Shown: piece by piece, positions 34,977 to 36,656 of the stretch
Layout: each line of letters starts with the position of its first letter
Numbering within the stretch: position 1 is the stretch's first letter
Assembly (NCBI GenBank): GCA_001786835.1
Contig: MFTO01000006.1
Location: 1-37,446 of the forward strand
DNA length: 37,446 nt
Direction of reading: 5' to 3'
From: Candidatus Nomurabacteria bacterium RIFCSPHIGHO2_01_FULL_40_20
Lineage (GTDB): Bacteria; Patescibacteriota; Minisyncoccia; Phycocordibacterales; UBA9973
The notes under the pieces: model-generated
The model's input: only the letters and a program-made list of their open reading frames with translations
What the model was told of the DNA's origin: nothing
Database searches by the model: none
Translations under genes and position numbers: made by a program

Positions 34977-35771
34977 CTAAGAATAAAGCGATTTAGCTTT
35001 ATCTACTCCAGCAGACACAGCTCGCAAAAGTGCCGAACTGAAACCTGCGTGGTCCATCTCAATTAAAGCATCAATGGTACAACCTCCCGGAGTGGTAACT
35101 TTATCAATTTCCACTTCCGGATGGACTTTACCTTCAAGTATCGCCCTGGAAACTCCCCGCATAAGCTGTCCTGCGATAAGAAGCGCATCATGCTCGTTGA
35201 AACCATTCTGGATTCCGGCTTGCATGTAAGCGCGAGCAAACTTTAGCATGAGCGCGGGCCCTGAACCGCATAAAACAGTCGCTTGTGGAAATTTTGACTC
35301 TTCTAAGATAATAAACTTGCCTAGAGAGTTAAAAATCCGTTCGACGAGGTCTCTGTGCTCCATCGCAGACTCGTTGAAAGCGAGGCAGGTCATGGATTCT
35401 CCATAACGAATTGAGGTGTTGGGCATTGCTCGCACTACTTTGACTTTGTCGTTCCCAAGTAGCTCTTTAATCCGCGTGATAGAGACTCCAGAAACAACAG
35501 AAATTAAAAGATGATGCTCTTTGATACTCCCTTTCATTTCGCTTAGAAGCTCTTCGACCTGTTTTGGCTGAACTGCCAAAATAAGAATGTCGCCAAAGCG
35601 TAGGGCCTGCTCATTGTCTACACAATCGTAAACTTTTCGCAGTTCGTCCGAAAAGTCTTCACTTTTGCGAGTAATGGCGATTCTGCCTTTGGCAATTTTG
35701 GCTTTGCTGATTCCGTCTGCAATAGCGAGGCCGATGTTACCGGCGCCTAGAATTGAAATTCTCTTTTCCAT
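34977..35771 (-). CDS. proC: pyrroline-5-carboxylate reductase
   Basis: ISILGAGNIGLAIADGI, ILAVQPKQVEELL, VRAMPNTSIRYGESMT, GSGPALMLKFARAYMQAGIQNG, TPGGCTIDAL. Confidence 0.96.
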   Translation of the reverse strand: MEKRISILGAGNIGLAIADGISKAKIAKGRIAITRKSEDFSDELRKVYDCVDNEQALRFGDILILAVQPKQVEELLSEMKGSIKEHHLLISVVSGVSITRIKELLGNDKVKVVRAMPNTSIRYGESMTCLAFNESAMEHRDLVERIFNSLGKFIILEESKFPQATVLCGSGPALMLKFARAYMQAGIQNGFNEHDALLIAGQLMRGVSRAILEGKVHPEVEIDKVTTPGGCTIDALIEMDHAGFSSALLRAVSAGVDKAKSLYS

Positions 35772-35796
35772 ATATTAAGTTTTAAAGTTACAAATT

Positions 35797-35921
35797 AAAA
35801 ACCAGCTACTTTGAGTAGCTGGTTTTTAATTTCAGGAGAGAATTTATTAAACGCAAAAACCAGCCACCCAATATGTCGCTGGCGGTACCGGTAAAGAATA
35901 AAATTTTGCGTTCCTATTCAC
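35797..35921 (-). promoter_or_regulatory. predicted proline-responsive transcription attenuator in proC leader
   Basis: Minus-strand segments: A GCCAGC (35883-35878), B GTGGCTGGTTTTT (35867-35855), C AAAAACCAGCTAC (35827-35815), D GTAGCTGGTTTTT (35809-35797); C:D is a 13-bp terminator, B:C an alternative 13-bp stem with one G-U. Confidence 0.8.
35847..35921 (-). CDS. proC leader peptide, 24 aa, not in ORF track
   Basis: GTG AAT AGG AAC GCA AAA TTT TAT TCT TTA CCG GTA CCG CCA GCG ACA TAT TGG GTG GCT GGT TTT TGC GTT TAA = MNRNAKFYSLPVPPATYWVAGFCV*; starts 7 nt after TATAAT. Confidence 0.75.
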   Translation of the reverse strand: MNRNAKFYSLPVPPATYWVAGFCV

Positions 35922-35928
35922 GAATACA

Positions 35929-35956
35929 ATTATAGCAAATTCACAAACAAAGTCAA
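35929..35956 (-). promoter_or_regulatory. proC leader promoter
   Basis: Minus strand TTGACT-N16-TATAAT. Confidence 0.8.
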
Positions 35957-35958
35957 AA

Positions 35959-35987
35959 TAGACTTTTTGGGGAACAGAATATATAAT
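35959..35987 (+). promoter_or_regulatory. pgl promoter, divergent from the proC promoter
   Basis: TAGACT-N17-TATAAT, 6 nt before ATG at 35994. Confidence 0.65.
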
Positions 35988-35993
35988 GCTTCC

Positions 35994-36656
35994 ATGGAAA
36001 TTCACCTAAAGCCTTATGAAAAAGCTCCGGAATACTTAACGGAAACTATTCTAAAGAAATTAAATAAAGGGCAGAAAGTCCTTTGGTTTGTGACCGGAGG
36101 CTCTTCTATAAAAATTGCAAGCAAGGTCTCAAAAAAGCTTGCCGGCTCCCCTATGGAGAACCTCACTGTGATGCTCACTGATGAGCGCTATGGGCCTGTG
36201 GGACACCCAAACTCAAATTGGCAGGGACTCATGCTAGAAGGTTTTGAACTACTAAAAGCAAAATTAATTCCAATACTCTCCGGAAAAAACATGGAAGAAA
36301 CCGCTAAAGATTTTGCTTTAAAAATGCAAGAAGAATTTCCAAAAGCAGAATATAAGATAGGACTTTTTGGCGTAGGTGCCGATGGTCACACTGCGGGAAT
36401 TCTACCGGAAAGCAAAGCATTTTCAAACGAGACGCTACTAGCTACTTGTTATCACACTCAAGAATTTGATCGAATAACAATGACGCCAGATGCCATCGAC
36501 AAACTAGACGAGGCAGTAGTATGTATGCACGGCAAAGAAAAGTGGCCAGTGGTTAAAGATTTACTTCATGAGAACAAAGGTTTCAGAATCCAACCAGCGC
36601 AACTTTTGAAAAGATTAAAAAAATTAACAATTTTTAGTGACTACCAATATGAGTAA
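35994..36656 (+). CDS. pgl: 6-phosphogluconolactonase
   Basis: LWFVTGGSSIKIA, VMLTDERYGPVGHPNSNWQGL, GLFGVGADGHTAGILPES; MEIHLKPYEK start preferred over ORF-track start 35967, which lies upstream of the -10 box. Confidence 0.92.
   Translation: MEIHLKPYEKAPEYLTETILKKLNKGQKVLWFVTGGSSIKIASKVSKKLAGSPMENLTVMLTDERYGPVGHPNSNWQGLMLEGFELLKAKLIPILSGKNMEETAKDFALKMQEEFPKAEYKIGLFGVGADGHTAGILPESKAFSNETLLATCYHTQEFDRITMTPDAIDKLDEAVVCMHGKEKWPVVKDLLHENKGFRIQPAQLLKRLKKLTIFSDYQYE

Follow-up and report, generated by a model that had tools for sequence, protein, structure and literature searches.

The window analysed here is the whole 37,446-nt stretch of contig MFTO01000006.1; all coordinates refer to it unless a contig is named, and its genome is labelled G000. 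The region of interest is the divergent gap between pgl on the plus strand and proC on the minus strand. In this gap, a leader unit consisting of a strong promoter, a short open reading frame (ORF) and a hairpin spans 35956-35792 on the minus strand, 20 nt upstream of proC. The first-pass annotation had proposed a promoter and a 24-codon ORF at this place, and all of these elements were found on the minus strand where it put them. It had also named the downstream gene proC, for pyrroline-5-carboxylate (P5C) reductase, and the gene does score above the TIGR00112 cut-off. The features are as follows.

35951..35956, minus strand: -35 hexamer TTGACT
35929..35934, minus strand: -10 hexamer TATAAT, preceded by TG, with a 16-nt spacer to the -35 hexamer (11/12 consensus matches)
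35847..35921, minus strand: leader ORF of 24 codons, MNRNAKFYSLPVPPATYWVAGFCV and a stop codon, with a homologous ORF in five other genomes
35904..35912, minus strand: main part of segment A, AACGCAAAA, codons 4-6, pairing with the ORF end that overlaps the 3' half of B
35880..35891, minus strand: regulatory codons CCG-GTA-CCG-CCA (Pro-Val-Pro-Pro), at a similar distance to B in six genomes
35878..35883, minus strand: upper part of segment A, GCCAGC, over the last Pro codons
35854..35867, minus strand: segment B, GTGGCTGGTTTTTG, codons Val-Ala-Gly-Phe-Cys, invariant bar one Y in six genomes
35814..35832, minus strand: segment C, 5' arm of the terminator and antiterminator partner of B
35792..35810, minus strand: segment D, the terminator's 3' arm, within which the U tract lies
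34977..35771, minus strand: proC (ATG at 35771), 209.7 bits against TIGR00112 (cut-off 196.75), with PF14748 (P5CR_dimer) and PF03807

Apparently leaderless start and proline codons

The leader ORF starts with a GTG at 35921, 7 nt downstream of the TATAAT box, and its TAA stop ends at 35847. This start had been described as leaderless and unlike that of textbook attenuators. The short 5' UTR stands, but it is not peculiar to the leader, being the usual arrangement of the G000 assembly. There, a TATAAT-like box ends exactly 6 nt before an ATG 80 times, while other distances of up to 39 nt occur 2 to 22 times, mostly fewer than 13. The distance from the -10 box to the start codon in the window leader and five related leaders is 6, 6, 6, 7, 9 and 9 nt. 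On the plus strand, pgl likewise appears leaderless (TATAAT at 35982-35987, then 6 nt, then ATG at 35994); a longer pgl ORF with a TTG start at 35967 is probably a false start. Because the 6-nt spacing dominates G000, with pgl alike and the six leaders at 6-9 nt, the near-zero 5' UTR can be attributed to a habit of the lineage, and leaderless initiation seems to be the rule in this genome. In an attenuator, this arrangement obliges the first ribosome to enter at the 5' end of the RNA still being synthesised. A scan of the G000 genome for further units of leaderless leader and terminator gave nothing convincing.

The Pro codons of the window leader are codons 11, 13 and 14. Among the six leaders, CCG, CCC, CCT and CCA interchange freely, which fits the UGG anticodon of the sole tRNA-Pro type detected in the scanned stretches. 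A separate observation concerns the order of tRNA genes. The series Gly-Pro-Gly-Arg occurs on two G000 contigs, L149 (4780-6367) and L159 (96-3023), with different spacing, reflecting either duplication or the presence of two related genomes in one assembly.

RNA segments and their competing folds

The terminator hairpin (35832-35792) has a 19-bp stem without mismatches, a 3-nt loop and a U tract. The first-pass annotation had seen the hairpin and its T tract correctly, but gave the stem only 13 bp. A stock terminator scan of the window lists only the terminator at the 3' end of proC; the leader hairpin was missed, presumably because its U tract lies within the stem. The reported match of B to D at 12 of 13 positions is present, and the lone mismatch becomes a G-U wobble in B:C, giving 13 contiguous pairs. 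Pairing of GCCAGC with B was likewise found, but segment A does not lie on the Pro codons alone. GCCAGC is merely the top of a longer A:B hairpin, at whose base AACGCAAAA (codons 4-6) pairs with the ORF end. The element falls mostly in codons 4-8 (AACGCAAAA in the window, AAAAACCAAC in the relative G060), its partner is the 3' half of B, and the Pro codons sit in the loop or upper stem.

Several comparisons set this structure apart from chance. The fold of the leader has a z-score of -6.3, and none of 200 shuffles is equally stable. The window B:C duplex reaches -21.1 kcal/mol, a value not equalled in 1000 shuffles of the ORF tail. About 480 kb of G000 contain 87 terminator-like hairpins, among which the proC-leader hairpin has the strongest upstream competitor (-21.1 versus -11.9 for the next), with none comparable before the others. 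The leader motif, which was built knowing the window, matches the window once and 100 shuffles not at all when up to three mismatches are allowed.

The competing structures were examined by masked folding, in which ribosome footprints are blocked and the RNA is refolded, for G000 and five relatives (G060, G004, G325, G041 and G1181). When the ribosome is stalled at the Pro codons and synthesis has reached no further than C, each of the six genomes gives about 14-17 B:C pairs. With the ribosome at the stop codon, C:D forms without B:C, again in six of six. Free RNA folds into A:B and C:D in G000, G004, G325 and G041, whereas that of G060 already favours B:C and that of G1181 is mixed. B ends 2-3 codons before the stop, and C begins 14-30 nt beyond it. 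The terminator hairpins range from -8.3 to -23.1 kcal/mol, all with a U tract; that of G004 is the weakest (-8.3). Compared with shuffles, B:C is not significant on its own in G004 (0.30) and G1181 (0.07). The first-pass annotation had recognised the 1:2, 2:3, 3:4 geometry of the trp/his type and its logic of stalling and stopping, and RNA folding reproduces the three states in all six genomes, although by computation only.

When the full-length window RNA is folded with a stalled ribosome, C:D is still optimal, and only about one B:C pair is left once D is present. Since C:D is the more stable at full length in the window, antitermination must be kinetic, with B:C forming before D is made, as holds for textbook attenuators.

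An attenuator needs codons for the amino acid that is the end product, and here 2-3 Pro codons occupy a near-fixed place in six leaders. It also needs a terminator (C:D), an exclusive antiterminator (B:C) and a protector hairpin (A:B), all present by computation, the last weaker or mixed in G060 and G1181. Finally, a ribosome at the stop must cover B and free C, as it does in the computed folds.

Related leaders and the genes behind them

The five relatives belong to the same family as G000, and each carries the leader before proline genes. G060 has the nearest proC in the genus (49% identical; contig CAIJZZ010000073.1). Upstream of it lie a TATAAT box, 6 nt, an ATG opening the ORF MFISQKTNISPVPRIFHKVVGFCI, and a hairpin with a U tract. 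Two additional leaders came from a pattern scan of 147 family genomes, which required Pro-Val-Pro and GGNTTYTGY and left the GTG and GYT codons free. These are MLIERKINSSPVPPSKGWVVGFCA, before proB-proC of G004, and MKYYAKTKLNNSPVPPLKIWVAGFCV, before a P5CR-like gene of G325, which belongs to another genus. The G041 leader, MNYCKTQIKNSSPFTPTQNSVVGFCV, was found by a mismatch-tolerant scan of loci already collected. A frame-neutral scan of the 147 genomes, which required B but left Pro, frame and stop free, gave 10 matches: the six leaders, including VNNYYIKTNCPIFFPANYSVVGFCTQ of G1181, which was found this way, and four unrelated sites (G1160, G1167, G224 and G045). Only six leader sequences are thus available; they were found with patterns derived from the first ones, and not all are independent.

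Outside the family, 80 loci upstream of the nearest proC relatives (Bacteroidota, Gemmatimonadota and others) were screened, and only the G060 contig was positive. No leader was seen upstream of proB in other genus members (L130, L131, L133-L136, L138 and L140), most of whose proB genes begin right after a promoter-like box. A scan of IMG/VR gave four chance matches, in coding DNA. Two further hairpins may be recorded. In G045, a hairpin with a U-rich tail at about L226 1480-1515 contains the B motif shortly upstream of a nucleotidyltransferase-like gene; it is either a chance match or another attenuator. At about L151 16250-16350, the terminator-like hairpin TAGCAAAGAGCCCAAAACTTTGCTA lies directly upstream of a glmS-like gene starting MCGIVGYIG, and is possibly another attenuator.

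When the leaders are aligned on GFC, all 15 Pro codons of the six genomes fall at positions -11 to -7, those of G1181 being shifted by one codon. A MAFFT alignment gives two conserved blocks, B and C/D. Within B, GTG-GYT-GGT-TTT-TGY is invariant in the six leaders, third bases (GTG, GGT, TTT) included, and the peptides all end in V-[AV]-GFC. The N-terminal half of the peptide and the codons between Pro and B are variable. C and D co-vary between two classes, ACCAGC/GCTGGT (G000, G325, G041 and G1181) and AGCCAC/GTGGTT (G060 and G004). Every C nevertheless remains complementary to B, whose sequence GUGGYUGGU accommodates both classes by a shift of the pairing register. Proline enrichment of any single peptide is modest (2-3 of 24-26 residues). 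Judged from these alignments, the pattern of conservation is that of an attenuator. Relatives without the ORF, Pro codons or complementarity between B and C would have refuted the first-pass reading; all three are kept in the five other genomes. The alignment of proC upstream regions that it proposed shows the ORF, the distance of the Pro codons and the B/C/D complementarity kept before three kinds of proline genes.

These genes are proC in two cases, proB-proC in one and a divergent P5C-reductase-like (P5CR-like) gene in three. The proC genes of G000 and G060 resemble the Bacteroidota type (about 38-46% identity), whose relatives lack the leader in the regions screened; proB-proC of G004 is of the genus type. 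The divergent long genes each lie behind a proline leader and score below curated thresholds:

L182, 452-1378: P5CR-like gene
L015, 1030-2091: P5CR-like gene
L221, 965-2023: P5CR-like gene

Their products, from G325, G041 and G1181, have 308-353 residues and are 27-37% identical to one another. They match TIGR00112 with E-values of 1e-9 to 1e-15, below the cut-off. The best matches in a profile search are P5C reductases of known structure, and an AlphaFold model (pLDDT 78) likewise finds P5C reductases as its best fold matches. Context, fold and the signature TK.GCTE suggest that this family is a proline enzyme. No proB above the cut-off was found in G000, G060, G325, G041 or G1181, and no proA match in G000, whose assembly is 78% complete. 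Since G325 is estimated to be 100% complete, the gene controlled there would be its lone P5CR-like gene. The presence of one leader on three non-orthologous genes suggests that either the leader was transferred or the gene behind it was replaced.

A probable proline attenuator and its alternatives

With high confidence, the leader controls proC by ribosome-mediated transcription attenuation in response to charged tRNA-Pro. Its anatomy, conservation and competing folds were established by computation; the inferred part comprises transcription start, leader translation, ribosome stalling, termination and the proline response. In the proposed mechanism, RNA polymerase would begin transcription only a few bases from the start codon of the leader. 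Without a loaded ribosome, A:B and then C:D would form, and transcription would stop. When prolyl-tRNA is scarce, a ribosome is predicted to halt on the Pro codons, a short way before B, and to disrupt A. B could then pair with the emerging C, leaving D single, and proC would be transcribed. When prolyl-tRNA is plentiful, the ribosome would reach the stop codon and cover B, so that C:D forms and transcription stops.

Proline T-boxes set the transcription of Bacillus proline genes, likewise by a choice between terminator and antiterminator that depends on tRNA-Pro charging, but there the tRNA binds the RNA directly and no leader peptide is involved. A T-box or other tRNA-binding riboswitch might sense uncharged tRNA-Pro directly here, the ORF being incidental, and pairing of the UGG repeats in B with the CCA ends of tRNAs is conceivable. 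However, Rfam gives no T-box match even at E = 10, so that neither a stem I specifier loop nor an antiterminator core was detected, and it gives no other known riboswitch in the leader. The whole leader, of about 150 nt, is also short for a T-box. In the six genomes the ORF retains its start, stop and spacing, whereas the sequence ahead of the Pro codons is variable and the Pro codons themselves move by one codon in G1181, which makes direct tRNA binding very improbable. The conserved codons for Cys, Gly and Phe were rejected as the sensing site, since they belong to B, which a ribosome stalled on them would cover, leading to termination.

Stalling might instead come from the nascent peptide, or from slow decoding of poly-proline of the EF-P type. 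Pro-Pro slows ribosomes, according to the available part of PMC8129111, and both PVPP (three leaders) and V-[AV]-GFC (all six) are conserved at the peptide level too. The other three leaders (PVPR, PFTP and PIFFP) lack Pro-Pro, however, and for this reason EF-P-type stalling and an arrest peptide were rejected. The conserved residues coincide with B down to the same wobble bases, as RNA pairing demands, and a ribosome halted at GFC would hide B and favour termination. Stalling for these causes rather than for uncharged tRNA-Pro remains improbable. That proC has a separate promoter and by chance follows an ordinary small gene, or an sRNA, that carries a terminator of its own can be given hardly any credence. 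The hairpin is indeed a strong terminator, through which several Rfam sRNA models match weakly, but the 20 nt between it and the proC ATG contain no promoter-like site. Moreover, the unit is found again ahead of three kinds of proline genes, whose neighbourhoods differ, and holds a competing antiterminator.

The most fitting description of the proC leader is that of a trp/his-type attenuator whose specificity, the control of proline synthesis, is new. Leader-peptide attenuators of the trp, his, thr and leu type are classical, known from Proteobacteria, Actinobacteria and some Firmicutes, and they share with it a short ORF that encodes the amino acid produced by the pathway, mutually exclusive A:B, B:C and C:D pairings and an intrinsic terminator. 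The proC leader differs in being specific to proline, in controlling proC, proB-proC or a P5CR-like gene, in starting 6-9 nt after the -10 box, which leaves no Shine-Dalgarno site, and in the number of its regulatory codons, just 2-3. All Rfam leader families stay below their gathering thresholds here (Thr_leader RF00506, 28.4 versus 55 bits; Phe_leader RF01859, 14.0 versus 55). In Salmonella, the mgtP and mgtA-leader ORFs are likewise rich in Pro codons, which were shown to be necessary in mgtP, and low prolyl-tRNA raises downstream transcription (PMC3641672). These leaders, of mgtCBR and mgtA, control Mg2+ transport and virulence genes, however, not proline synthesis, and their peptide and RNA are unrelated. 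A multi-genome survey of 2010, as far as it was accessible, reports leader-peptide attenuation from Proteobacteria, Actinobacteria and, as new there, Firmicutes, with no mention of proline in the accessible main text (PMC2965389); nor is proline mentioned in a survey of Actinobacteria (PMC1262725). Neither a leader peptide for proline synthesis nor any leader attenuator of Patescibacteria was found in the literature searched, of which coverage was partial, so that absence is unproven.

A broader reading, favoured only slightly over its negation, is that of a portable proline attenuator with a leaderless ORF. One ancestral cassette would have come to stand before proline genes of three non-orthologous kinds, all in one family. 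Ribosome-mediated attenuation would then have both a target, proline synthesis, and a lineage that are new for it, and translation would begin at the 5' end of the nascent RNA rather than at a Shine-Dalgarno site. Attenuation without such a site could be studied here in a compact and testable system, and the context of the leader supports, on functional grounds, an assignment of the divergent long P5CR-like proteins as proline enzymes. The genomes concerned, of 0.4-1.4 Mb, fit CPR/Patescibacteria. In these tiny-genome bacteria, proline synthesis is very probably switched on when ribosomes stall for lack of proline. A conserved attenuator in a lineage of reduced genomes would mean that its members still regulate by feedback the few steps of amino-acid metabolism that they encode, transcription and translation being coupled.
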